Assembly: GCA_000349905.1 (NCBI GenBank)
Contig: KB722741.1
Coordinates: 461,979 to 525,978, forward strand
Direction: 5' to 3'
DNA: 64,000 nt
Source of the DNA: Volvariella volvacea V23
Lineage: Eukaryota; Basidiomycota; Agaricomycetes; Agaricales; Pluteaceae
Positions 21,895-64,000 of this stretch are shown here, piece after piece. A model generated the notes under the pieces. That model was not told where the DNA came from. It saw only the letters and a list, made by a program, of their open reading frames with translations, and searched no databases. Position numbers and translations under genes: made by a program. How positions within the stretch are numbered: position 1 is the stretch's first letter; every line of letters starts with the position of its first letter.

Positions 21895-23577
21895 CTATTC
21901 TTGTGCCTCCCAATTGTACAGTTTACCACTACTATATATAACAATGCTAATCATCTTCCGAAGACGTAACAACCTATTTCTGAAATCTGGTTTCATTAAT
22001 ACAGTATCGCACTTGATCACGACTTCCGTCAAAGGCCGGCCACAGTCGCGTCTGTGTATAACGAATCGTATCAACGAGGTTAGACTGAAGGTTTGATCGC
22101 TAAAGTGGGTCTGCTCGAATCTTAAAGTGCGGAGGTTGGGGAAAATGGAAGCCGAGAATTCCTGGCACTTTGGACAGCCGCGCAGGGGTACAGGCTCCAA
22201 GGGATTGTTACGGATATTGGCCTCTGCTTCGGAGAGCATCACATCAGCTCCTCGCGTGCATTCGCATGAAGGAATAGCATTGGAAAGAGCCTTGCAATTT
22301 ATAAGAGTCAAAGTGTCGAGGTTGGCCAACACGAAGGAGTTTGAAGACAAATCCTGGAGGATTTTGGGGGGATAGTTGATAAGCTTTAGATCGCGTGGCG
22401 TGTTGAAAGGAAATTGTGAGATGAAATTAGCAAGGAGTGGCATCTCCAGATCGGCATTCCTGATCCAGGAAAGGCAGATGACGTCTTCATTGCGGCTGTT
22501 TAGTGCACGTATGGTCACTCGTCGCGTCCCTTGTGTGTCGAGAATATAAAGAGCTGGAGAGCTGCTAGATATAGGAAGGGTGGTATTGGCCATAAACCTC
22601 GGCAAGATACTCCTGAGCTGGAATAACGACGTCGGTAGTCTAGACAAAGAGACCGTCAAATGCGTCAGGTTTGGAGGAGAAACTAGGATGGATAAGAAAT
22701 GAGCGCATTCGGTTTCCTTGTCATTGAGTAAGGTCAAAGAAACCAAAGATGGCAGTGTAATTCGGGTTTGGTCGATTGTCGTCTCGGTGAAGTGTGAAAA
22801 TACGTTGTCCAAAGTGAGGTGGGTGAGTTTCGTTAAGAAAGATAGAGCACCACAGAATGCCTGTAGAGTTGGCATGGTCCTTGCATCCGGCTCCCTGATT
22901 ACGAGTGTGACGAGGTCTCGTGAAATAAGATGGATGTTGATATAACTGCGCTCAAGGCGTAGATGCTCTAAGCCGGAAATTGTACCCGATGTACGGTATG
23001 GCCAACCATCGCAATCGATTGCAGTGAAGGTCTTCAATGGTGAGTGTGAGAAGTCGAGTGAAGGAAGGGGGTCTCCGAGTCGTGTTCGGATATTGCCAAA
23101 GATAAACAATGAGGTGACTCGATCCAGGGAACGCTCCAGTGAGGGTAGGATTCTCAACCAGTGCTCGACCTTAACTGTGGGAGACTGTACGTTCAGAGAT
23201 AAAGGAGTCCCTTGTGAACGAAGAAAATGGAGCTCCGCCCATTCGTGTCTCATAGCTGGGAGGGAAATGGCATTCCAAAGAGAGGGACATTGCAGTGCAA
23301 CATCTCTCCAATGACTCGAGACCTGGGTGATTGAGATCCACAAAAGTGATCGTGGAGAGGGGTGTTCATTTTTTGGAGGCTTCTCATTGAAGATGTCGCG
23401 CTGGTAGATTGTCATAATTCGTGATAGGATTTCGGGTGGAAGTTGGGAAATCGGGACCAAAGCATTTCGACGTAACCGAAGATCCCTAAGCTGCTCCTCC
23501 AGCTGCAAGATTTCCTGGTCAATCCTGGCGCGTTCTGCCTTAACCCAGTTGGATCCGACGAGATTGTTCATGTCCAT
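21895..23577 (-). CDS. F-box-like leucine-rich protein (tandem copy 1)
   Basis: This is a single-exon frame of 560 residues. The ATG at 23577 begins MDMNNLVGSNWVKAERARI; the same Met position is used by the paralogue at 26086. Residues 10-45 form a short coiled coil (EILQLEEQLRDLRLRRNAL), followed by an F-box-like motif (ISQLPPEILSRIM, then WISITQVSSHWRDVALQCPSLW). The rest (residues 130-560) is leucine-rich and irregular. This architecture is a large, expanded family in Agaricomycetes, thought to serve as SCF adaptors. A cluster of Cys near residue 440-460 (CEC, CPKC) is conserved in the paralogue and could bind metal. It is head-to-tail with its paralogue, and the substrate is unknown. Confidence 0.85.
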   Translation of the reverse strand: MDMNNLVGSNWVKAERARIDQEILQLEEQLRDLRLRRNALVPISQLPPEILSRIMTIYQRDIFNEKPPKNEHPSPRSLLWISITQVSSHWRDVALQCPSLWNAISLPAMRHEWAELHFLRSQGTPLSLNVQSPTVKVEHWLRILPSLERSLDRVTSLFIFGNIRTRLGDPLPSLDFSHSPLKTFTAIDCDGWPYRTSGTISGLEHLRLERSYINIHLISRDLVTLVIREPDARTMPTLQAFCGALSFLTKLTHLTLDNVFSHFTETTIDQTRITLPSLVSLTLLNDKETECAHFLSILVSPPNLTHLTVSLSRLPTSLFQLRSILPRFMANTTLPISSSSPALYILDTQGTRRVTIRALNSRNEDVICLSWIRNADLEMPLLANFISQFPFNTPRDLKLINYPPKILQDLSSNSFVLANLDTLTLINCKALSNAIPSCECTRGADVMLSEAEANIRNNPLEPVPLRGCPKCQEFSASIFPNLRTLRFEQTHFSDQTFSLTSLIRFVIHRRDCGRPLTEVVIKCDTVLMKPDFRNRLLRLRKMISIVIYSSGKLYNWEAQE

Positions 23578-23640
23578 GGTGGTGGAATGGTAGGAAGTGG
23601 CCGTTGGTGGTGCTAACTGGCAGTAACTGATGCGCCCGAA

Positions 23641-23646
23641 CACGTG
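23641..23646 (-). promoter_or_regulatory. Conserved CACGTG (E-box) upstream of F-box-like gene
   Basis: The palindrome CACGTG lies 64 bp upstream of the ATG at 23577 within a block (gcgcccgaaCACGTG) that is also conserved upstream of the paralogue, and a CACGTG is present upstream of the broken third copy. In fungi this hexamer is bound by bHLH factors. A role here is inferred from conservation only. Confidence 0.45.
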
Positions 23647-24412
23647 AGCGGGCCGGAGTTTTTAGCAGGGGCTATTGCGGCCAAACAGAATAATTGCTCT
23701 TCTCTTGCTTTTTTCGTCATCTATTGAGGCGTTGCCGAAAAACGCGGACCTCATCTCACTATGTACAATGTCTCAAGTCGACATAGATAGATGCACAAAA
23801 AATTTCGAAAAAGAAATCACCCCAAATTCAGGGCATGCAGGGGTCACCAATCTAACGAAGCTGCCACGCTTCTATCTGGGCCAGCACGGGGAAACAGAAA
23901 GTTGAGCCCAAGGTGTGTCATCTGAGGCAGCATAAGGCCTCCATCGAGCGTAGATCCTCCCTAATGGGTAAGCAAGCAGACTGGGCGGGCAGAGATCCTT
24001 CCCACCAGTAACCAACAAGGACAGTCGGGGGAGAGTACTTTTCCCTGGAAAGCATGGAAATAAAAAGAAAGGGAGGATAACTAGTCAACATGAATCGTCC
24101 AAAACAGCCGGTGAAATATTGGCGGGAGACCCTCTTGCAAGTGCCACCCGATCTTGTGGCCAGCGCGTTCCGATGGCTGGAAGAGTGACGTGGCGAAAGA
24201 GGTTATAAAGCTACTGGACGGACAGCCTCTAAGCTACCAGGCACGGTAAAATTTGGCCTCCCATGTAGGTCCTGCTTTCGCTCTTCTCCATGAACTTTCT
24301 CCATTTGAATCGGACAGTGTGAGCTCGATGTTATGACTTGAATACATTAGCGCTCTTGTACGTAGCACCAGGAGGCAAGTGGCTCTACAGTAAGCAGCAC
24401 GTCAACGTTATC

Positions 24413-26086
24413 CTACTCCTCTTTATCCCATTTATACAGCGCACCGCCGACATATATCACGATATCAACTATTTTCCGAAGACGCTCCAACCTATTCTGA
24501 AATTCTGGTGCTATTGACATTGCATCGCACTTGATCACAACTTCCGTCAAAGGCCGACCGCAGTCCCTTCTGTGGGCCACAAACCTTATCAGTGAGGATA
24601 GACCAAAGTTTTGCTCGTCGAACTTGATCTGCTCGAACCTCAAAGTGCGGACATCGGGGAAAATGGAAGCTGAGAATTCCTGGCACATTGGGCAGCCGCG
24701 TAAGGGAGCAGGGTCTGAATGATCATTATGAGACTCGGCCTCGGAGAGCATCGTGTTGGCCCCTCTCACGCATTCGCATGAAGGAATAGCATCGGCAAGA
24801 GCTTTGCTATTCGAAAGGGTCAAGGTCTCGAGATCGGCCAACATGGATGTAGGCGAGGAAAGCTCCTGGAGGATTTTCGGGGCAGAGATGGTGAGCTTTA
24901 GATCGCGTGGAGTTTTGAGAGGAAGTTGTGAGACGAATTCAGCGATGGAGAGTGTCTCTAGCATGTCATCCCTAATCCAAGAAACAGAGATGACATCTTC
25001 GTTGAGGCTATCCAGCGCTCGTATGGTCACCCGTCGCGTTCCTTGGTTGCCGAGAATATAAAAAACTGAGGAGCTGCTGGCGATGGGTAAGGAGGTATTA
25101 GAGATAAACTCCGGTAGGATAGCGCTGAGTTTGGTTAACGCAGTTGGTGGCTTGGAGAGGGAAACCGTCAAATGCACCATGCCTTGAGGAGGGACTAGCC
25201 GGGATAAGAAATGAGCGTAACGGTGCTCGGTGTCGTTGACTAAGGTCAAAGAAACTAGAGATGGCATTGTGATCTGGGATTTATCGGTCGTCGTTTCGCT
25301 GCACCGAGAAAATACGTTGTCCAAAGTCAAGTGGCTGAGCCTTGTCAAGGTAGATAGCGTATCATAGAATACTTGCAAAGTTGGCATGCCACTTGTGTCC
25401 GGCAGTTTGATTTCGAGTGTGACGAGGTCTTGTGAAATGAATGCCATGTCGAGATAACTGTTTTCCATTCGCACATGACCTAAGCCAACAACCGTGCTGC
25501 ATGAATGGTACAGCCAACCGCTGCACCAGATTGCAGTGAAGCTCTTCAACGGCGAGCGTGAGAAGTCGAGTGGTGAAAGATGTTTTCGAGTTTGAAGATC
25601 GCCAAAGATAAGCAACGAGGTGATCCGATCCAGGGAACGCTCTAATGAGGGTAGAATTCCTAACCAGTACTCACCCCCGACAGTGGGAGACTGTACGGTC
25701 AGAGATACAGGAGCTCCTTTTGAACGAAGAAAAAGGAGTTCCGCCCATTCGCGCCTCATGGTTGGAAGGGAAATGACGTTCCACAGAGTGGGACATTGTA
25801 ATGCAACATCTCTCCAATGACTCGAGACCTGGGTGATTGAGATCCACGAAAGGGATCGGGGAGAGAAAAATTCGCCTTTTTTAACTTTTCGCTGCTGTTT
25901 ATTGAAAATGCCGCGCTGGTAGGCTGTCATGATTCGCGATAAGATTTCGGGCGGAAGTTGGGAAATTGGTGCCAAGGCGTTTCGACGTAAACGAAGGTCC
26001 CTAAGCTGCTCCTCCAGCTGCAAGATTTCCTGGTCAATCCTGGCGCGTTCTGCCTTAACCCAGCTGGATTCGTCGAGATTGTCCAT
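24413..26086 (-). CDS. F-box-like leucine-rich protein (tandem copy 2)
   Basis: This is a single-exon frame of 557 residues, a close paralogue of the gene at 21895-23577 along its whole length. The order is the same: coiled coil, F-box-like motif (ISQLPPEILSRIM, then SHWRDVALQCPTLW), then an irregular leucine-rich body and a conserved C-terminal block (RRDCGRPLTEVVIKCD). The N-terminal 35 residues are nearly identical to copy 1 while the middle has diverged, as expected if the F-box end is under stronger constraint than the presumed substrate-binding part. It is transcribed in the same direction as its neighbours, and the intergenic spacer to copy 1 is 835 bp. Confidence 0.85.
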   Translation of the reverse strand: MDNLDESSWVKAERARIDQEILQLEEQLRDLRLRRNALAPISQLPPEILSRIMTAYQRGIFNKQQRKVKKGEFFSPRSLSWISITQVSSHWRDVALQCPTLWNVISLPTMRREWAELLFLRSKGAPVSLTVQSPTVGGEYWLGILPSLERSLDRITSLLIFGDLQTRKHLSPLDFSRSPLKSFTAIWCSGWLYHSCSTVVGLGHVRMENSYLDMAFISQDLVTLEIKLPDTSGMPTLQVFYDTLSTLTRLSHLTLDNVFSRCSETTTDKSQITMPSLVSLTLVNDTEHRYAHFLSRLVPPQGMVHLTVSLSKPPTALTKLSAILPEFISNTSLPIASSSSVFYILGNQGTRRVTIRALDSLNEDVISVSWIRDDMLETLSIAEFVSQLPLKTPRDLKLTISAPKILQELSSPTSMLADLETLTLSNSKALADAIPSCECVRGANTMLSEAESHNDHSDPAPLRGCPMCQEFSASIFPDVRTLRFEQIKFDEQNFGLSSLIRFVAHRRDCGRPLTEVVIKCDAMSIAPEFQNRLERLRKIVDIVIYVGGALYKWDKEE

Positions 26087-26139
26087 GGTCGTGGAATAGT
26101 AGGAAACGGCAGTTGGTGAAAGTAATTGATGCGCCCAAA

Positions 26140-26145
26140 CACGTG
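26140..26145 (-). promoter_or_regulatory. Conserved CACGTG (E-box) upstream of F-box-like gene copy 2
   Basis: CACGTG sits 54 bp upstream of the ATG at 26086 inside the same conserved block (gcgcccaaaCACGTG) as in copy 1. The broken third copy has CACGTG at 27349-27354, about 85 bp from its ATG. Function is inferred. Confidence 0.45.
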
Positions 26146-26204
26146 GGTGCGGGTTGCTTCGGGCCTGGTGGGGCCAACCAAGAGAATTACTCTTCTATAT
26201 TGAA

Positions 26205-27264
26205 TTAAAGGGTGTGAGGTCTTTCGCCTATAATTATTCGTTCTTCTACTGTACATACACTAATTTTCCCTGTAGGTGGGGACTTCTCCAAAACGCGAAT
26301 CTCGGCTCGGGATGTAGCTGATGAATTGGAAATGTAAAGAGCTGGTGATGAGCTGGCCACGTGCAAAGAGGAATTGGACATGAGTTCCGGTAAAATGCCA
26401 ACAAGCTGAGATAACGATGTTGCTGCATTATTGAGTGCAATCGTCAAATGCATCAAACCTGGAGAAGAGAGCCGGGATAGGAAATATGCGCAGTCTTCTT
26501 CAGATTCATTGGATAAGATCAGAGAAACTAAAGATGGCATTACAACCTTGGTGTTGGACCTTTCTTTCGTCGCTCTGATACACCACGAAAAAACACCGTG
26601 CAAACTTAAGTGGCGAAGCTTTTTCAGGGAGCATAGTACATCGCAAAACGCGTCAAGAGACGGCCGGGTGCTGGAAACCGGCTTTTTGATGAAGAGTTCG
26701 ACGAGATCTGGTGAAAGAAGTGTTGCATTGAACTGACTGCGTTCAATACGTAGACGACCTAGGCCAACAACTGTACTCCAGGTATGATAGAATCCATCGC
26801 ATTTCATGGAAGTAAAGTCCCTTAGAGGCGAATTCGAAAAGTCGAGGGAAGGAAAGGGTTCCGAGCCACGAGAGATGCCAACAACGAGCAGTGAGGTGAC
26901 TCGCTCCAATGCAACCTGTAAGGAATGATTTCCGCCCATTGATAGGTCATTTGTGGGATGGAAATAACATTCCACAGAGAGGGACACTGCAACACAACAT
27001 TTCTCCAATGACTTGAGTCCTGGGTAATTGCGATCCACGAAAGTGTCCGCGGAGAGAAAACTTCGTTTTCTCTCCGTTGTTCATTGAATATGTCGCTTTG
27101 GTAGCCTGTCATGATCTGCATGAGGACTTCTGGTGGAAGCCGGGAAACTGGGGTCAAGGCGTTTCGACGCAAACGAAGCTGCACCAGCCGCGTCTCCAGC
27201 TGTACAATCTCCTGGCACACTCTGCCTCGACCCAATTGGATTTTCCACAGTTTTCTATGGTCAT
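26205..27264 (-). pseudogene. Broken third tandem copy of the F-box-like gene
   Basis: The ATG at 27264 starts MTIENCGKSNWVEAECAR, matching the intact copies. The frame is then lost because GCCAGGATTGACCAGG of the intact copies has become GCCAGG, a 10-bp deletion between two CCAGG repeats. The second frame keeps the coiled coil and F-box (VSRLPPEVLMQIM, SHWRNVVLQCPSLW). About 100 bp are then missing after the QWAE codons (about 26945), again shifting frame. The third frame keeps the leucine-rich part (LGRLRIERSQ, LFIKKP). The reading frame ends at 26205, lacking roughly the last 170 residues of the intact copies. Three lesions make a functional product unlikely. Confidence 0.85.
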
Positions 27265-27472
27265 GAAATATTAGGAATCGATGGTTGTTGATGCTGTATA
27301 AGCCGCTGAGCCACTTAGGGTTACGGATGGGATTGCCTGGCTGGTTTACACGTGACCCAGCCTCTCTCCGCTTGCCTCGATATAGAACCCATCCTTCTGA
27401 CTCTACCCGCACCAGTCAGTCGAGTTGTCGTCCATCCGCCATTCCTTATATCGGGCTTTGACGCCCCTCTCC

Positions 27473-34912: not shown

Positions 34913-36145
34913 TCAGATATGAGGAATGAATTCTGTCCACTTTACGTTCCCGTGCGTAGAGTCCGGGAAATCACGAAGGGCAAAGGTCTGGAGGGGGATG
35001 ACGCGAGCAGCCAGGTAGAGAGGAGGCCCTATCGTTAGCGCCGGAAAGCTGATTACGGTTCGAATAATCGGAGTAAGGCCGCCCGCCGAATTATTTTCCG
35101 CGTAGGAGGCACCGGATGCAACGACAAAAAGGAAAGGAAATGACGACGAGGACGAGGACGAGGACGAGGGAAGATGCTCACCACAACAGAGTTCAGTCAA
35201 CCTTGAAAATCGGAGATTCCAGTCGATGAGGTGAACTCCACCGAAGAGCACTCCAATCACCGAACCCCAGCAAATCCCAAGGTTGTGATCGGCGCTTTGG
35301 GAGCAAAGAAGTTATGAACAATGCTCTGAAGCCTTTCTCCCAAAATATGTACTTCACGCCCCATTCCTGAAAAGTGTTCTCAGCACTTAACCGACTACAC
35401 CCCTTCTCCCTCCCCAGGCAACTTCGTACCACACTTCATTGTTCTCCTCCTCTAGTCCGTCCGCTCGCTTCCCTTCCATATCGAAGTAGATCGGATACTG
35501 GACATTGAGTGGTTTATCCCACCACAATCCGTAGGTGATCACGTTCAGCGTCGCAAATGCGAGAGTCACCAATTCGATTTCGGTGAGAACGAGGCCTTAA
35601 ACATACCGAGTGATGCATTGGCCAACAACCATCTCGTTTGAAGGATGTCGATGGCTTTGGCAGGTATGCCGTCTTTTCCGCGATCCCTGATTTCCTTCTC
35701 CGATATGTGTGGTATTTCATGGCCATTGACGTCGCCTACAACTCTTTACGTCGAGCCTACGTCAAGTTGTACGAGGCATCCCATTTGGGGAAAAGCCCAT
35801 GAGTTCGCGTCCATCCAACAAGTTAGCATGGCACTTGCATTTTCGGGCGGGCGAGGGAACACACGCTTATTCTGCTCCGTAATCCTATCTTCCACAATCC
35901 GCCGTCGCATAGCCCACATAATCACCTTCTTCTGGGCCAACAACGCCTACAACGCTGTCCTAAGCTCTGCTCAAGTTACCTGGATCCAAGAGTCGTTCTG
36001 GTCTGGGACAATGTGACGAGTAGAGAGATGCGTGCACAGCAATAAGATCCCAATGCAACCCCACAGGATGGCCTGGATAGTCCGCATGCGAGTAGGATCA
36101 CCTTGGCGAGCGGTGTGCGTTTCCGTGAGATCGTATATGGCATGC
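34913..36145 (-). pseudogene. Dead copy of the multi-span membrane-protein gene at 41074-42473
   Basis: Blocks of the intact paralogue are visible in order on the minus strand: the first-exon region at about 36145-35860, LVTLAFATLNVITYGLWWDK with DMEGKR at 35572-35430, EWGVKYIFWEKG at 35370-35320, and MIGVLFGGVHLI through KWTEFIPHI with TGA at 34913-34915. They are in different frames. A deletion of roughly 80 bp after FWEKGFRALF removes the loop present in the intact copy, and a short-repeat expansion interrupts the next helix. No continuous frame can be restored by splicing. Confidence 0.85.
35141..35169 (+). repeat. Hexanucleotide microsatellite (GACGAG)n
   Basis: About four to five near-perfect GACGAG units occupy the position where the intact paralogue (near 41310) has a single gacgaggacgaga. 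It encodes poly-Ser on the minus strand in the dead copy, so it expanded after the gene lost constraint, or helped break it. Confidence 0.8.
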
Positions 36146-36538: not shown

Positions 36539-39500
36539 ATGCCTTCTTACTTGGAATTCTTCACTAATGCCCGAAGAGTAGAGGTCCAGAATGGACAACT
36601 CATCAACGTCGCAGGCGACCACACCGTCAATGAAAATCACGTCCACAATTATCTCCAAAATATTCAATCACAAATAGAGGGTAGCTATTCCCAGTGTTGT
36701 TTGCCATTCTTTCTCATACCCATCCCTTCTTTCGTTTCCTTCTCACTAGTGGCCCAGCGTGCCCTATACAGTGTAATCGCTCGTGATGCTATGCACGATG
36801 GGGATCAGAGTTCCGAAGCACTGCAATTCCATCCCAATACCTGGAAGACCCTACGTGCAGACATAACGCCATGGGTGTTGAACCCACATCGGTCGGAGAA
36901 AGTCCTCTGGCTGAAGGGAATAGCTGGTACCGGGAAATCAATGCTCTCTAAAAAGCTGGCAAATACTTTTCATGATGCGGGGGCCGACTCGGGCGGTCAA
37001 TTAGCGGCAAGCTTTTTCTTCTTGACGGAAGGCCCAACTCGCAACCACCCCGGCAGATTTGTTGTTACAATCGCTTATCGCCTGGCCGTCTCATTCCCGG
37101 ATGTTGGAGAGAGAATTGGTGCTGCAATCGCTCGGGATCGTACGTTACTTACAGCGGGAATTAGCCATCAATGGGTGGCGCTTGTGGTTAAGCCAGTCAA
37201 GGATGCATTGGGGTCCACACTTCCAGCAGTTATCATCATTGACGGTTTAGATCAATGTGGTTCGGCAGAAGATCAGCGACAAATCCTCAGCCTCATATCT
37301 TCCTGTGGACCCGATTTTCCTATCGCATTCCTGATTACGAGCCGCCCAGAGCCGCATCTCCTCTCTGCATTCGAGGAGTATTTAGGACGACGTGCTGTGA
37401 TACGCCATAGGGCTGTCGAACTCGGTGACAGTGAGGAGTCTCGTACAGAGATGAGGGCGTATCTTCGCCACTCCTTTACCACCATCCGCAAGAAGACCCC
37501 ATTCCTATTTACTCCTGGCATTCAATGGCCAGATGCGCAGGCAATCGACAAGATTCTCGACTGGGCATCTGGTCGATATCTTCACCTCTCTATAATAGTA
37601 AAGTCAGTGGGGAGCGATAACGATCCTCATGCTGCACTCGACAGAACTCTCGTTAGAGCGTCTACATATAATGGGACATTCCAAAAGCTCGTTGTCGCTA
37701 TTGACATTGGGACAACTCACAGCGGGGTATCCTATAGGTGTGTGCCTAATTACCTGATACAACCGCTCTCGTAACAACATTTTTAAGTATCTTGGACCCG
37801 TGTACAGCTCCCAAGATACTGCATGTTACAAGGTGCTGTCTCATCGAACTCAGGCTCTCTGGATTTCAAGACAAGCTGAACTTGTTTCTAGGTTTCCTGG
37901 ACAGGATGGTTACAGTAGAGATTCAAGAATACCATCAATTGTTGTGTACGATCAACTCGGGCAGGTCCGAGCAGTTGGAGCAGAAATAAATAACCCAGCT
38001 CTTCAAGTGCAGATGGTGGATGAGAAGTGGTCCAGAGCAGACTGGTGAGTCGCAACTCTGATATGGCGTTTTCTACATCTGATAGGTATTTTAGGTTCAA
38101 GCTGCACCTACGACCAAAAGATCTGGATTCTGTGGAAATTGCCCATGGCCTTCCTCCACTACCCCCAAACAAGACAGCTACAGCAGTCCTTGCAGACTTC
38201 CTTCACTATATTGTCCAATGCACACAGCAGTTTATCATCGAAAAACACTTCAATGGAGCAGTCCTTTGGGAATCTTCCAAGGACTTCATCTTAACACATC
38301 CAAATGGATGGGGTAGTCAGCAACAATACCAGATGCAAAATGCCGCTCTAATGGCCGGGATCGTACCAGACACACAGGATGGTAGAAAACATATTCATTT
38401 TTTGAGTGAGGGAAACGCGAGTTTGTATTATTGCATCGCCAAAAATATCCTGCCACGTAATTCAACGGTTGGTCCTATTTTCATGTATAATCCGGGTGCT
38501 GATAATTGCTGGGCCTAGACACGCAACAATGTTCTAATTATCGACGCCGGTGGGGGAACCATTGACACAAGTGCCTATCGGAAACGACAGGAATGGCAAA
38601 GAGGGACTACTTATGAAGAAATTTCTATCCCACAGTGTGAGTTGTTTCTGGTTCCTGAATGATCTATACATCACAAATTAGCGACTAGGCTTTCTTCAGG
38701 GCTCAGCGCTTGTTACACAGCGGGCACACTCATACCTCCAAGGTAATCTTATTAATATCGAATGGAATTATATATATTCTGAGGCCTTGACAGAGTATCT
38801 CACAGAGTCAAAATATAGCGATGACATTCCAGCGATGGTTTCAGTCTTTGACAGGACTACGAAACCTGGGTTCAATAACTCTGATCAAGCGGAATATATC
38901 CATTTTGGTAGAGTTCAGGATAACGACATTAACCATAACATTCGTAATGGAATATTGAAACTCGATGAGTAAGGCTAAAGCACAGCAGATCCTATCTCTA
39001 TGGCTCACCACATCTAGGGCCACCATTTCTGGGTTCTTTGAACCTTCAATTAAATGTATGAAGTCAGTAATCGAACAATCGCATTCAAGACATAGAACTA
39101 AGGCAAGTTTTTTTACATAGGAGAACAGTGACTTTAAACACACTAATATTTGGGTAGACTGTGTTGCTCGTAGGGGGATTTGCTGCTAACGAATGGGTCT
39201 TCAAGTCATTAAAGTCCTCTTGTGATCCTATTGGGGTGTCGATCTATCGGCCTGACCACCACACGTAAGTGCCGTCTCTAAATCTGATTTATCTCCAGAT
39301 CATTTATGATGATGATTTCCAGTGGAAAAGCGGTTGCTGGTGGTGCTGTGGCCCACTTCCTCGAGCGTTATCTTAGAGCTCGGATTTCCAAATTTGCAGT
39401 TGGCATTGCCGGCTTATTGCGTTACAATCCCGAAGACCCCGAGCATGTCCTCAGGAAGTCTCAACTCGCAACTCTCCCTGATGGTAGTCTAGTTTTCTCA

Positions 39501-40039
39501 AACTGTTTTGACACATTTTTACCCAAAGTGAGTATAATTCAGCGATTTTCTATTTAGCTCATGTTCTCTGAAATATTCAGAATACACGAGTTACCGAAGA
39601 ATGTCAATATCGACGGTCATTCAGCAACACAAAACTGACATATCAGGAATTAATTAACTGCCGGTGTCAGATAAAATTTTATGGACATTTTGGTGAGCTG
39701 GCCAGACCCCAATGGATGAACGGTAGTATAAATCCATGTCTCTTTGAGATGAGAATTGTTAATGATCTTTATACTGCTAGAAAATCCAGATGATTATCGA
39801 CTTCTTGGCGAAATTCCTGTTATAATTTCGGACTTCCGACATGTCATTCGGAGGGAAATAGGCTCGCATGGAGATGTCTGCTATAAAATATATTACGATG
39901 TCATTATATTCTTTGGTTCCACAGAGCTAAAAGCCCAAATTGGCTGGAAGGAATCTCCCGATGTATGTCGCTCATCTGCTTCAGAAAATACGGTCTCATA
40001 CTCATACTCTGTCGTTAGGGTGACATCAAGTATTGGTAA
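36539..40039 (+). CDS. NACHT NTPase fused to HSPA12-type Hsp70 domain (copy 1)
   Basis: The protein is 917 residues from 13 exons: 36539-36680, 36750-37737, 37892-38044, 38086-38467, 38519-38636, 38689-38742, 38794-38968, 39018-39102, 39158-39264, 39323-39527, 39581-39722, 39781-39962 and 40019-40039. Residues 1-48 match the short N-terminal segment of fungal NACHT proteins (INVAGDHTVNEN). Residues about 100-320 are a NACHT domain: Walker A GIAGTGKS at 104-111 and Walker B VIIIDGLDQC near 208-217. From residue 362 an Hsp70/HSPA12 nucleotide-binding domain follows: phosphate-1 AIDIGTTHSGVSYR, phosphate-2 IIDAGGGTIDTSAY (about 562-575), adenosine motif LLVGGFAANEW (about 702-712). No peptide-binding domain follows. 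There are no WD40, ankyrin or TPR repeats, so the Hsp70 part replaces the usual sensor. Intron 8 (39103-39157) starts with GC. Sensor or allorecognition function is inferred. No frame damage is seen. Confidence 0.9.
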
Positions 40040-41073: not shown

Positions 41074-42385
41074 TCAGATATGAGGAATGAATTCTGTCCA
41101 CTTTACGTTCTCGTATGCAGATTCAGGGAGATCACGAAGAGCAAAGAAGGCTTGAAAGAGGATGATGACGCGAGCAGCCAAGTAAAGGGGAGGCGCCACT
41201 GTCAGTGCTGGCATGCTGAATACCCTTCGGATAATGTAAGGAAGGTTGCTTGTCGATTTCTCTTCTGCGTAGGAGCCAATGGATGCCACTACGAAAAAGA
41301 CAGGAATAGTGACGAGGACGAGAGAGGAAGCTCTCCATAACCAGAGCTCAGTCAACGTTGGAAATCGGAAGTCCCAGCCTATAAGGTGAACTCCACCAAA
41401 AAGCACTCCAATCATCGAACCACAACAAATTCCAAGGTCCTGATCGGAGGTGCTCATCACTGCAGCATAGAATGGGTGGACGCTTGTTTTTTTGTTCCTC
41501 TCGCCTTGTTCTCCTGTCATATCCATCAAAGGAGTGAAGACAGCCCTAAACAATGCTTTGAGGCCTTTCTCCCAAAATATATGCTTAATGCCCCATTCGT
41601 GAAGAGTATCCTCGTCTCCCAACCGACTGTACCCTTTCTCCCTTCCCCAGGCAACTTTGTACCACGCCCGATTGCTCTCATTCTCCTCTGGCCCGTCTAT
41701 TCGCTTCCCTTCCATATCGAAGTAGATCGGATACTGGACATTGAGTGGTTTATCCCACCACAATCCGTAGGTGATCACGTTCAGCGTCGCAAATGCGAGG
41801 GTCACCAATTCGATCTCGGTGAGAACGAGGCCTTGAACATGCCGAGCGATGCATTGGGCAACAAACCATGTCGTCTGAAGGATGACGATGGCTTTGGCAA
41901 GTATATCCCCCTTTCCGCGATCCCTGATCTCTTTCTCCGGTATGCGCGGTATCTCAACGCCGTCGACGTCGCATACGACTCTATATGTTGAATCTGCAGC
42001 AAGCTGTACGAGGCCTCCCATTTGGAGGAAGAACCCGTGAGTTCGCGTCCATCCACGGTCTTGAACAAGTTAGTATGGTGCTTGCGTCTTCAGGGAGGGA
42101 ACTCACGCTTGTTCTGCTCTGCAATCCTACCCGACATAATCCGCTGCCGTATAGCCCACATGATCACCATCTCTGGAGCCAACAACGCATATAATGTTGT
42201 CCTAAGCTTAATCCAAGTAGCTTTGATCCAAGAGTCGTTCTGATCTGGGATGTTGTGATGGATAGAGATATACGTGCACAGCAATATAACCCCAATGCAA
42301 CTCCACAGGATGTCGTAGATGGTCCGCATGCGGGTAGGATCACATTGGCGAGCAGTGAGTGTTTCCGTGATGGCGTATATGGGAT
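40653..42385 (-). repeat. Large direct duplication, copy 2 (intact membrane-protein gene and flank)
   Basis: This is the partner of 34285-36145, about 6.3 kb to the right in the same orientation. The NACHT-Hsp70 gene lies between the two copies. Confidence 0.85.
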
Positions 42386-58624: not shown

Positions 58625-61600
58625 TTACAGATGCTTGATTTCACCCTAGCAATCACGCATAAGCTAAAAATTGAAATGATTAGAGCAGATCAACGACATA
58701 CGTGATCTGATTCTTTCCAGCCAATTTGGGCCTTCAACTCTGTAAGCCCAAAGAACAAGATGATATCATAGTAAATCGCATAGGAGACATCTCCAGATGA
58801 GTTGACTTCCTTCTGAATGAGGTGCCTGACGCCTGTCGTATCGAAGGGAACTTTGCCAATAAGCCGATAATCATTCGGGTTCTCTAGCATCACAAAAGAC
58901 AATTAGTAAATCTAATCTTGACGAGATAAACATGAGATTGTACTACCATTGATCCATTCTGGTCTGGCAAGTTCACCAAAATACCCGTAAATCGTGCTTG
59001 GGGTTTGGTTGTCAACAAGTCCTTCAAATGTTGACCCTGTACGGCCATATGACCGTCGGTATTGTTGCTCCTCAGTGACTCGTGTATTCTGGGAATTATG
59101 ACAATGATACAGAATGAGACTAATAGAAACATTGAAAAGGTGCTTACTTTGGGTATGGTGATGTCAAAGGCGTCAGGAAAACACAGGCTGCCATCATTAT
59201 AAGTTTTGAGCTTTGATTTCCGGAGGACGTGCTCGGGATCTTTGGGATCATAAATCAACCATATCTTTGCACCAAAAGCACATCTGGAAATCCGGGCCTT
59301 GACATGGCTCCCAAGGAGGTAGGATATTGCACCATCTGCAACTGCTTTAGCCCTGCAACAATCACCTTCATAAATTATCCCAGAATGTCGGATGCAAAGA
59401 TGAAACATACGTGTGGTGGTCAGGGCGGTAGATTGATACCCCAACATTATCGAAGGTGGCCTTCAACGATTTAAAGACCCATTCATTGGCAGCAAATCCC
59501 CCAACGAGAACCACAGTCTACAGAGGTGTTAGCATACTAAAAGAGCCTCTGTGAACGACTTTACTTTGATCTCATGCTCCAGGTGTGATTTGCTGATTAC
59601 GGATTCCATGCATTTGATTGATGGTTCAAAGAAGCTGGCAACTGTGGACCTGAACGCAATGAGATACAGGTGCTACATATACTCTGCCAAGTATCAGCCT
59701 TACCCATTCAGCTTCAATGTGCCATTGCGAATATTGTAATCCTTATCGTTGTCATGCCTGCTACCAAATTGGGTGTACTCCATCTGATTAACATCCTTGA
59801 ACGTGATTTTCGTAGTCTTATCAAACGATGAGACTATTCCTGGGATATCATCACGATATTTTGAGCCAGCAAGGTACACTGCAGAGGGGTTGGAATTAGA
59901 AGATCATATGACATTGAAAATATTACTTTCGAGGCGTGAATGTGCACGCTGCGTCACGATAACTGATCCCTGGAGAAAACCTGCATTGCGATTCGTGACA
60001 CGTATGCCATATAAAGACCAGAAGCAACTCACACTGTGGGATTGTAATCTCTTCGTATGTAGCTTCGTTTTCTTGTCGCTTGCGATAGGTACTTGAGTCG
60101 ATGGTCCCTCCACCGGCATCGATGATTAAAACACCATCTCGCGTCTAGAACAGATCACACTTAGCATGCTCAGCAGATGGCAACACTACATACTGTTAGG
60201 TTGCGAGGCAGGATATTGTTCACAATGCAATAATGAAGGCAGGCTTCTCCTTCCGTCAAAAAATGAATGCTATCCCGCCCATCAGCCGAATCTTGGATAA
60301 TTCCAGCCATAACAGCTGCCTCTCTCATCTGGAACTGTTGTGGGCCACCCCAACCATTTGGATGCGTGAATATAAATTCCCTAGGAGATTCCCAAATCGC
60401 AATTCCATCTGTATGACTGTCAATAATGAACTCCTGTGTGCATCTGACAATGTGGCTAATAAAGTCTGCAAAGACCATCGTAACCGTCTTATTTGGAGGT
60501 AGAGGGGGTATTTCTTTAATTGACCCTATAGGCGCCAATTCCTTCGGCCGTAGGTGCAGCTTAAACCTGGAAAACCTGTCAGAAGGGTGTAATATCGTAT
60601 ATGCTACTTACCAATACGCTTTGAACCAATTCTCATCTTCTATTTGTATTCGAAGGGCTGGGTTTTCTGCTTCAGCTCCAACTGCCTTGACGTTTCCAAA
60701 CCGGTCATAGATAACAACCGATGGTATCCTTGGATCCCCACCACTGCCACTCTGTCCAGGAAACCTAATATGTATTCAGCGTATCTCAATGACTGAGGGT
60801 GTCAAGAACACGACACCTTGTAACACATCTGATTTTCGGAGCTAGATGCGAATCTAGGATGCTTCAAGTCTCGTTATACGTGTAGTTATAAAACAAACAC
60901 GTCGTATACATACCTGTAGGACACCCCACTATATGTTGTTCCAATATCAACCGCAATGACGAGCTTTGAGTATTTTGGGGGTGTCATGGTTTCCTTATTC
61001 GTAGGCGCTTTTTCGAGGGCCTCCTGAAGAGCGGCTCGGGGATCATCGCTGGACCTTACCGATTGAACTACCATTGAGAGGAGGAGGTATCGTCCGGATG
61101 CCCAGTCAAGAATCTTGGTGATTGTCTGCTCATCCGGCCATTTCTCATCCAACGAGAATGCTGTTGGGTGCTTCTTACGAATGCCAGAGAATGCGTGGTC
61201 AAGGAACACCTTCATCTCTGTACGAGTTTCCTCGCTGTCCCCGAGTTCAATGACTCTATGATTCATCCCAGCGTGCCCTAGATTCTCCTCGAATGCAGCT
61301 ACAAGGCGCAGCTCGGGGCAGCTTGTAATAATGAATGCAATTGGAAAATCGGGACCACAGGATGAGATTAAATTGAGGATCTGGTGTTGATCTTCTGCGG
61401 TTCCACATTGGTCTAAACCGTCAATGAGAATAATTGCTGGGAGTGTCGATGTTATCACCTCCTTCACTGGCTTCACCACAAGCTCCGCCCACTGGCGATT
61501 TATTTCTGCTGTCAACAATGTACGGTCTTGAACGATCGCAACCCCAATCCTTTCTCCAACTTCTGGGAGTGAAACAGCCAAGCGATAGGCAATCGTAGCG

Positions 61601-62135
61601 GCAAATTTGCCAGGGTGGTTACGAGTTGGGTCTTCCTTCAGGAAGAAAAAGCTGGCCACTAACAAACCCTCGACCTCTCGATTGTGAAAATCGTCCGCTA
61701 CCCTCTTGGAAAGAGCTGATTTTCCGGTACCAGCTACCCCCATCAGCAAGAGAATGCACTCCGACCGTTGAGGGTCTAGCATCCATGAAGTTATTGCTGT
61801 GCGCTGGGCCTTTCGAGTGCCGGGATGGAAATCCAGTTTTCCGGTCCGTTGATCACCATCATGCATGGCGTTGCGAGCAATTACATCGTACAAGGCGTTT
61901 TGCACTTGCAGCAGTAAAAGTTCTAAAAATAGGACGATCCGAAACGCATGCAACACTTACCTTTCTCTTGTAGCTGAGTAGTTGGCAGGGGATTGTGAAT
62001 GTGATTGATAGTCTGATTGACAGTGTGGTTGCCTGCGACATTGATGAGGTCTCTATGGACCTTGGTGTCCCGTGCATTGGTGAGGAATTCTAACGAGAGG
62101 GGAGGTGATGACGAGGGAGGCGACGGAGCATCCAT
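58625..62135 (-). CDS. NACHT NTPase fused to HSPA12-type Hsp70 domain (copy 2)
   Basis: The protein is 927 residues from 13 exons: 62135-61961, 61904-60914, 60764-60612, 60575-60194, 60144-60033, 59980-59927, 59878-59704, 59649-59565, 59517-59411, 59352-59148, 59088-58947, 58883-58702 and 58645-58625. Intron positions equal those of copy 1 and ten of the 13 exons have identical lengths. Motifs: NACHT Walker A GVAGTGKS at 114-121, Walker B IILIDGLDQC, then Hsp70 phosphate-1 AVDIGTTYSGVSYR, phosphate-2 IIDAGGGTIDSSTY, adenosine motif VLVGGFAANEW. The N-terminus has an extra Pro/Ser run (PSPPSSSPP). It diverges from copy 1 throughout but is fully open, indicating long-term constraint. Intron 8 has a normal GT donor (gtaaag), unlike copies 1 and 3. 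It is in tandem with copy 3, same strand. Confidence 0.9.
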
Positions 62136-62860: not shown

Positions 62861-64000
62861 TCACCTGTGCTTAACCTCACCCTAGCACTTGGATATAAGA
62901 AACCCTAATTACTGCAGTAGATAAAAGACGTACATCAGAGTCCGTCCAGTAAATCTGAGCCTTCAACTCTGTGAGACCAAAGAACAAAATCAGGTCAAAG
63001 GAAATTTCGTAGAAGAAACCCCCAGATGGGTTAGCTTGTCTCCGAATAAGGTGCTTCACATCTGTGACATTGATGGGTATCAAGCCAACGACTCGATAAT
63101 CTTGTATATTTTCTGTCGATGCAAAGCGCTGTGAGTAATCCTAGCCTCAACGGGATATGCACGGGGTTGGTACCGTCGATCCAATATGGTTCTGCCAGCT
63201 CCCCAAAATATCCAAACATCACGACTGGGAACTTTTCATTAACTAATTCTTCATACGTCGACTTTGTTATGTTGTATGGCCGTCTATATTGCTGATCCTC
63301 AGTAATTTTTGTGTTCTAAACAGGGAAATGAGAGAGGTTTAAACACATAAAGTGCACGTACTTTGGGTATCATCATGTAGAAGCACGAGGGGAAACGCAG
63401 GACACCATCTTGAGAAATTTTGAGTTTAGATTTGCGGAGAACGTGCTCCGGGTCGTTTGGATTATACGATAATCTGCAGAAAGTGCCAAATGCACATCTG
63501 GAAATTCGGGCTTTCACATGGCTCTCGAGGAAAAATGACACAGCACCATCAGCAACTGCTTTTGCCCTGGGAAATCACCTTCATGAATATCCTTCAAATT
63601 CAGAGGTGACACGTACATGTGGTGGTCAGGTCGGTAGATAGATATCCCGAGAGGATCAAAGATAGCCTTCAATGATTTGAAAACCCATTCATTAGCAGCA
63701 AATCCGCCGACGAAAAGTACAGTCTACACGGATATTAGCGAGTTCAAATGCTCCTATTGGTACTTGCCTTAATGTTATGTTCCGAGTGTGATTTCTTGAT
63801 TACGGATTCCATACATTTAATTGATGGTTCAAAGAACCCAGCGATAGTAGTCCTAGATCAAATGAGCGGCTACAGATGATACATAGGATCCGTCGTGTTT
63901 CAACCTTACCCATTCAGTTTCAACGTGCCATTGCGGATGTTGAAATTCTTGTCATTATCATGCTTGCTACCGAAGTGGGTGTATTCGACTTGGTCAGAGT
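62861..64000 (-). CDS. HSPA12-type Hsp70 C-terminal half, third family copy (5' part outside window)
   Basis: Seven exons are visible: 62861-62881, 62934-63112, 63174-63315, 63362-63566, 63617-63723, 63768-63852 and 63910 to the window edge, in the same positions as exons 13 to 7 of copies 1 and 2. Encoded motifs include TVLFVGGFAANEW, RPDHHMAKAVADGAVSFFLES, DPEHVLRKSKLK and FFGLTELKAQIYW, ending GEVKHR. The frame is open in all of them. The intron after exon 8 (63767-63724) starts GC and ends AG, as in copy 1. Whether it carries a NACHT domain cannot be seen because the 5' part is beyond 64000. Confidence 0.85.

Follow-up and report, generated by a model that had tools for sequence, protein, structure and literature searches.

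The locus described here raises the question of whether a NACHT NTPase and an Hsp70 of the HSPA12 type are joined in one fungal protein and, if so, what such a protein would do. It lies on the plus strand of Volvariella volvacea V23 at 36539-40039 of the window, that is, the whole 64,000-nucleotide stretch of DNA analyzed (C6:461979-525978, C6 being the contig that contains it); the genome searched comprises 35.4 Mb in 54 contigs. In a stop-free splice model, this gene, designated copy A, has 14 exons and encodes one protein of 929 residues in which a short N-terminus is followed by an NPHP3_N/NACHT NTPase and then by an HSPA12-type Hsp70 (Table 1). Twelve of its 13 introns are GT-AG and one is GC-AG. 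Exon 2 (988 nt) starts before the NACHT P-loop and ends just beyond the Hsp70 phosphate-1 motif.

The top public match of copy A is AX16_009486 (P0001) from Volvariella volvacea WC 439, with 99% identity at 93% query coverage. It starts at copy A residue 62, runs gap-free from there to the end with two substitutions, and is annotated in the WC 439 assembly in the identical fused order. An assembly error at copy A is ruled out by this second occurrence, and two adjacent genes are ruled out by the one-exon junction, its presence at six loci, and the other assembly. A wrongful merging of neighboring genes into one model is very improbable: a single in-frame Met directly ahead of the Hsp70 part in copies B and C would allow for it, but the junction falls within one open exon at six loci, the halves of A, D, E, and F have no in-frame Met between them, and P0001 is a fused annotation from a different assembly. 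On sequence grounds, NACHT-Hsp70 is thus confirmed as a true in-frame fusion that would be made as a single chain. The preliminary description had proposed one continuous, splice-consistent protein whose junction in a single 988-bp exon excludes two genes. The stop-free 14-exon model and the P0001 annotation confirm the former, and the six loci together with the fused WC 439 annotation bear out the latter. The NACHT Walker A/B and the three Hsp70 ATP-binding motifs that it had listed likewise look intact in the sequence.

Table 1. Coordinates of copy A features and of the further fused copies in the window
Feature	Position in window	Strand	Remarks
Copy A, exons 1-7	36539-36680, 36750-37737, 37788-37832, 37892-38044, 38095-38467, 38519-38636, 38689-38742	+	
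Copy A, exons 8-14	38794-38968, 39018-39102, 39158-39264, 39323-39527, 39581-39722, 39781-39962, 40019-40039	+	
Exon 1	36539-36680	+	short N-terminus; hydrophobic/Gly stretch LINVAGD, weakly like Agaricomycete amyloid-like NLR motifs
NPHP3_N/NACHT NTPase and first helical domain (HD1)	36833-37663	+	residues about 76-352
Walker A GIAGTGKS	36917-36940	+	motif comparison of copies
Walker B VIIIDGLDQC	37229-37258	+	motif comparison of copies
Fusion junction	37664-37669	+	HD1 end meets HSPA12-like start; winged-helix domain missing
HSPA12-type Hsp70 nucleotide-binding domain	37664-39371	+	exons 2-11, residues about 353-763
Hsp70 phosphate-1 motif DIGTT	37703-37717	+	motif comparison of copies
Hsp70 phosphate-2 motif IDAGGGTID	38540-38566	+	motif comparison of copies
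Hsp70 adenosine motif LVGGFAANEW	39167-39196	+	motif comparison of copies
SBD-beta-like beta sandwich	39372-40036	+	exons 11-14, residues about 764-929; no alpha lid
Copy B	58625-62135	-	14 exons, 932 residues modeled plus 7 at ends by eye, stop-free
Copy C, 3′ part	62861-64000	-	whole gene reaches G000:C6:528312; 934 residues, 14 exons, stop-free

Copy A belongs to a cluster of six fused loci within about 56 kb (C6:498.5-554.2 kb). A and B lie inside the window, C is truncated by the window end, and D, E, and F follow further along the contig. A search with the NACHT half recovered the six loci at 64-100% identity, the next match being at 47%, and all six places were among the top matches of the Hsp70-half search. 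The models of A, B, C, E, and F comprise 917-949 residues without frameshift or stop; that of E has an extra first exon with no clear start, and that of F omits the final residues. The junction-bearing exon measures 982-991 nt in every copy and is exon 2 in all models but that of E, where it is exon 3. The reading of copy D breaks off near a run of 100 N inside it (C6:543215-543314); no 3′ Hsp70 part was found up to 546000, the sole tblastn match (543001-543171) lying before the gap, and either a fragmentary gene or faulty assembly may account for this.

The neighborhood harbors other repeated genes. Members of a multi-copy membrane-protein family lie to either side of copy A (window 34916-35629 and 41077-42033, both on the minus strand). 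This family has at least 138 matches in the genome; the matches upstream of copy A contain a TAA stop. A role of this family as a constant partner was rejected, with no match among those listed at C6:504.1-597.6 kb. Three neighboring open frames at window 21898-27415 (minus strand), all with ISQLPPEILSRIM or VSRLPPEVLMQIM close to the beginning, a stretch that we take to be F-box-like, represent another local expansion.

The domain search proposed in the preliminary description, run with the copy A product, matched NPHP3_N (1.2e-22) and NACHT (3.9e-7), both over the Pfam cut-offs, while the Hsp70 half is recognized by fold and motifs, PF00012 (HSP70) giving no match at E <= 0.01. Among the homologues scanned with PF00012, P0037 scored over the cut-off, P0008 and P0025 scored under it, and P0003 gave no match. 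Walker A and Walker B are intact in 6/6 fused copies. The tetrad that we take to be the sensor-1 motif (SRP-E/D) is SRPE in A, C, and F and SCPE in B, D, and E. This difference may mark two functional classes among the copies; in the NACHT tree, the three SCPE copies form one group (100/98).

Beyond the NACHT core, the fused proteins depart from the NLR plan. No C-terminal repeats were found in copy A, for which Pfam at E <= 0.01 returned NPHP3_N, NACHT, and a weak AAA_22, and the NCBIfam scan gave no match over its cut-offs. The fusions track single Volvariella NLR frames through HD1 (..NPxxALxxxL..) and then pass directly into the Hsp70 start. After HD1, the single NLR frames have a stretch such as LSxLDxLY and then a domain with an HHxSFxDFL-like motif (seen in all 11 frames viewed of the 13). 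A winged-helix domain (WHD; HETHS/ARC2) profile built from the post-HD1 domain of all 13 single NLR frames gave no match to any of the six fused proteins, and a six-frame search of their loci produced nothing better than E 1.1. As a control, the same profile matched 10/11 other NLRs at <= 4.9e-11 and missed P0031. Of the ten matched, P0024 shares 99% identity with training row L062, and the remaining nine share 30-58% with the row closest to each. The earlier proposal that the Hsp70 takes the sensor position therefore stands insofar as sensor repeats are absent, but it is incomplete in that the WHD has been lost too. Because these two defining features are absent, the fused proteins are not classed as canonical NLRs. 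Without a WHD, the classical ADP-locked resting state may be absent, which counts against reading these proteins as receptors.

The Hsp70 half is more completely preserved than had been anticipated. Its nucleotide motifs are conserved in 6/6 copies, as far as sequenced, and its structure model is confident and aligns with BiP and DnaK across the nucleotide-binding domain (NBD) and the beta substrate domain (SBD-beta). The preliminary description held that HSPA12 proteins have no normal substrate domain; this does not apply here, since the model includes both the NBD and SBD-beta, and the alpha-helical lid (SBD-alpha) alone is missing, the last elements being beta strands and residue 868 the C-terminus. 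By fold and sequence, the modeled half is a member of the HSPA12-type Hsp70 group. The model was built on 52 alignment rows, with NACHT coverage certain for P0001 and P0002 only, and its NACHT half is of low confidence; the absence of a NACHT fold from the 50 structure matches listed is uninformative for that reason. A single-sequence model was set aside (pLDDT 35.5), and mixed NLR and HSPA12 alignments (A1, A4) were dropped because NLR rows were misplaced. The high-ranking viral structure matches come from closteroviruses and giant viruses; they are Hsp70 homologues, and their relevance is confined to fold.

Both halves point to a single origin. In the HSPA12 tree (42 rows: 6 fused, 20 single Volvariella loci, and 16 other proteins), the fused rows form one clade (100/100) whose sister is the single locus L028 (100/100, with the bootstrap not fully settled). 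In the NACHT tree (36 rows: 6 fused, 13 single loci, and 17 others, of which P0024 duplicates L062), they again group as one clade (100/100), and their sister is L053 (100/99); the two trees do not fully agree on the branching among the six copies. L028 (C6:615.8-617.9 kb) is the nearest single HSPA12, ~62 kb from the fused cluster, and L053 (C6:632 kb) is the nearest single NLR, ~78 kb away. Because both lie this close on the same contig, one local fusion followed by duplication nearby is the most likely course of events. The Hsp70 part of copy A starts TYNGTFQKLVVAIDIGTT, and L028 reads APSTRSAYNGTARKLIIAVDLGTT after a Met; therefore, almost the entire HSPA12 gene was captured. At the level of predicted proteins, the fusion is shown to consist of a NACHT gene truncated after HD1 and an almost complete HSPA12-type Hsp70 gene, joined in frame.

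Single relatives of both halves are numerous, with at least 88 NACHT matches in the genome and 21 places with a single HSPA12. Twenty of the latter were modeled (C26:207 kb was left out), and 17 of these are stop-free, the models of L034, L039, and L043 containing stops. Among the matches listed, which are lower bounds, no NACHT occurs within 8 kb of the 21 places. The interval G000:C6:616-791 kb holds 15/21 of them, with the NLR L053 among them, and is a hot spot for both families. This reservoir bears on the possibility that the fused Hsp70 is an integrated decoy or bait that mimics a single HSPA12, such that NACHT reads an attack or an allelic mismatch and chaperone activity is unneeded. 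The many stop-free single copies in the same genome and the position of the closest relative on the same contig as the cluster fit this reading, as do the non-canonical domains described as candidate integrated decoys in Sordariales NLRs in the available text of PMC12258605. However, the candidates presented there sit on complete tripartite receptors, whereas here a host-related domain is present and a full receptor is absent (no WHD, no repeats), and the conservation of the nucleotide motifs also argues against a mere bait. A decoy is rather unlikely, although it ranks first among the alternatives to the reading preferred below.

The fused order appears to be narrowly distributed. Public proteins were searched with copy A (145 matches, 120 used), with a limit of ~830-2,640 residues (63), and with a five-fusion profile (104), each search scoring only the ~8,000 candidates that share most words. 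The 274 proteins obtained include 113 with the NACHT half, 163 with the Hsp70 half, and two with both, P0001 and P0002. The latter lacks 27 residues relative to copy C and is counted as Volvariella because it matches that copy with three substitutions. No fused order outside Volvariella was found among the 274 proteins (~8,000 candidates scored per search), and no WC 439 relatives of B, D, E, or F were among the matches listed. As judged from these proteins, the fusion is likely absent outside Volvariella. A lack of fused homologues in any other genome, which had been named as an argument against the fusion, may hold at the species level but does not hold at the assembly level (WC 439).

Proteins of Pluteus cervinus, presumably of the same family as Volvariella, are among the matches with HSPA12 alone or in tandem. 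In many mushrooms, protein annotations (P0121-P0147) place HSPA12 units in tandem, with a maximum of four in P. cervinus P0121; these may be genuine or the product of merged gene models. Another set from several Agaricomycetes and metagenomes (P0148, P0150-P0158, P0160-P0164; about 1,140-1,340 residues) carries an N-terminal HSPA12 unit followed by 540-740 further residues without an HSPA12 match; Pfam gave no match on P0151, P0157, P0161, and P0163.

The fused copies are under constraint in both halves. Median dN/dS values (NG86; ten pairs of A, B, C, E, and F, the incomplete D being excluded) are 0.20 for the N-terminus (9/10 pairs usable), 0.18 for NACHT, and 0.17 for the Hsp70 half, within which they are 0.15, 0.12, and 0.24 in N- to C-terminal order; median dS exceeds 1 in every region, so the comparisons are near saturation and absolute values are rough. 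No positive selection is shown by NG86, every median being far below 1. SBD-beta is the fastest-changing large domain among the fused copies (identity 0.53 versus 0.72 for the NBD; dN ratio SBD/NBD 2.03). This rapid change is not fusion-specific because unfused HSPA12 groups show it too: the ratio is 4.45 and 2.08 in two groups of 6 pairs each and 1.25 in a single pair. These values weigh on the notion that the proteins are HSPA12-type chaperones whose NACHT/HD1 part is merely an oligomerizing or degenerating remnant without immune signaling. The lost WHD, the sensor-1 Arg missing from 3/6 copies, and the HSPA12 N-terminus retained almost from its start are what such an appendix would leave, but the NACHT half is constrained about as closely as the Hsp70 half, and its Walker motifs persist in every copy. 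A chaperone with an appendix is thus improbable and comes after the decoy in likelihood.

At the extreme N-terminus, all six copies have an LI/LT-x-V/I-A-G-[DN] stretch whose likeness to the motif families of PMC9815663 is weak. The strict form of the motif occurs in 3/6 copies and in 2/77 NLR-like proteins, compared with a shuffled mean of 1.2. Conceivably, the Hsp70 half acts as a built-in brake that binds this amyloid-like stretch in its own chain or in a neighbor, blocks or undoes stacks, and so restrains or resets NACHT signaling. According to the portions available, the SBD of HSPA8 binds RHIM proteins, blocks their fibrils, and disassembles them with ATP (PMC10624691), and roughly 30% of basidiomycete strains have NLRs with N-terminal amyloid-like motifs, which number dozens in each strain (PMC9815663); the retention of the stretch in 6/6 copies agrees with such a role. 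Conversely, the motif likeness is weak, the Hsp70 unit has no alpha lid, and no partner effector was found, the fungal death-effector profiles PF22215 and PF17111 giving no match, which is uninformative given that every control was silent as well. A brake is the least probable of the functional alternatives.

The favored reading, held at a probability of roughly 0.4 and thus tentative, is that the family works as an intracellular peptide-gated receptor in which the Hsp70 unit occupies the place of both the winged-helix lid and the repeat sensor. The unit is covalently joined to HD1 at the usual winged-helix position. In the accessible part of PMC6345817, binding of human HSPA12A to the tail of SorLA is stronger with ADP than with ATP, and in yeast two-hybrid the substrate-binding domain by itself is sufficient. 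If the fused unit is like HSPA12A, then SBD-beta would bind an exposed peptide or partner, and binding would be coupled to whether the Hsp70 domain carries ATP or ADP. The resulting change of state might release the NACHT core for assembly and bring the N-termini together, which could then relay a signal to an effector. The SCPE variant in B, D, and E speaks against a receptor. An NLR-like mode of action and the receptor with two nucleotide switches envisaged in the preliminary description remain inferences, and a chaperone peptide-binding domain may have been recruited into an intracellular alarm. It is doubtful that the family represents a distinct receptor design with two unrelated ATP switches, in which NACHT assembly is controlled directly by an Hsp70 unit that recognizes exposed peptides or amyloid seeds; were this true, the many single mushroom HSPA12 genes would be free-standing parts of the same recognition system.

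Physical fusion is a classic hint of two families working together. With many NLR-type and many HSPA12-type genes in this genome, the fusion bears on whether HSPA12 serves fungal non-self recognition, and it raises the question of whether a STAND core can function with a lid of another fold. An edible mushroom offers five read-through loci, conserved in both halves, in which these questions arise.

The preliminary description knew of no described system with this architecture, and no NACHT-Hsp70 or NACHT-HSPA12 fusion in fungi is described in the open-access titles and abstract starts among those listed; the fused order is also absent from the available parts of the fungal NLR surveys PMC4986451, PMC9815663, and PMC12258605. 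What is new is the architecture; the chemistry is not. With fungal NACHT NLRs (HET-E/NWD2 type; Agaricomycete NPHP3_N-NACHT), the fusions share the NPHP3_N/NACHT core, Walker A/B, HD1, and a large expansion, but they have no WHD, no WD40, ANK, or TPR repeats were found, and an Hsp70 follows instead. With HSPA12-type Hsp70s of Agaricomycetes and animals (HSPA12A/B), they share the whole NBD and SBD-beta; the fused Hsp70 half has 26-44% identity to most fungal homologues listed, and the five-fusion profile reaches bivalve HSPA12A-like and HSPA12B-like proteins (P0268 5.5e-10, P0274 2.6e-5). Whereas the HSPA12 proteins matched are alone, in HSPA12 tandem, or with an unmatched extension, the fusions carry NACHT. 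NLRs with integrated domains in plants and Sordariales (PKinase/CHK-2, PMC12258605) have likewise captured a host domain, but the nine Sordariales PKinase NLRs retain the tripartite receptor and the fusions do not; hsp70 is unmentioned in the main text of that source. Prokaryotic conflict systems with HSP70 similarly couple it to other NTPases in putative defense, although as separate genes beside GTPases and tubulins and with no NACHT fusion in the portion of PMC7159879 at hand. The nearest hint comes from the TRADD-N proteins of oysters, an expanded immune family whose variable C-terminal modules, “one or more of” which can occur in a protein, include HSP70 domains as well as STAND NTPases in the accessible description of PMC8195603. 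That description sets the family apart as one of molluscs with modules behind a TRADD-N domain; if STAND and HSP70 share a chain there, the Volvariella fusion would be a parallel rather than the first of its kind.
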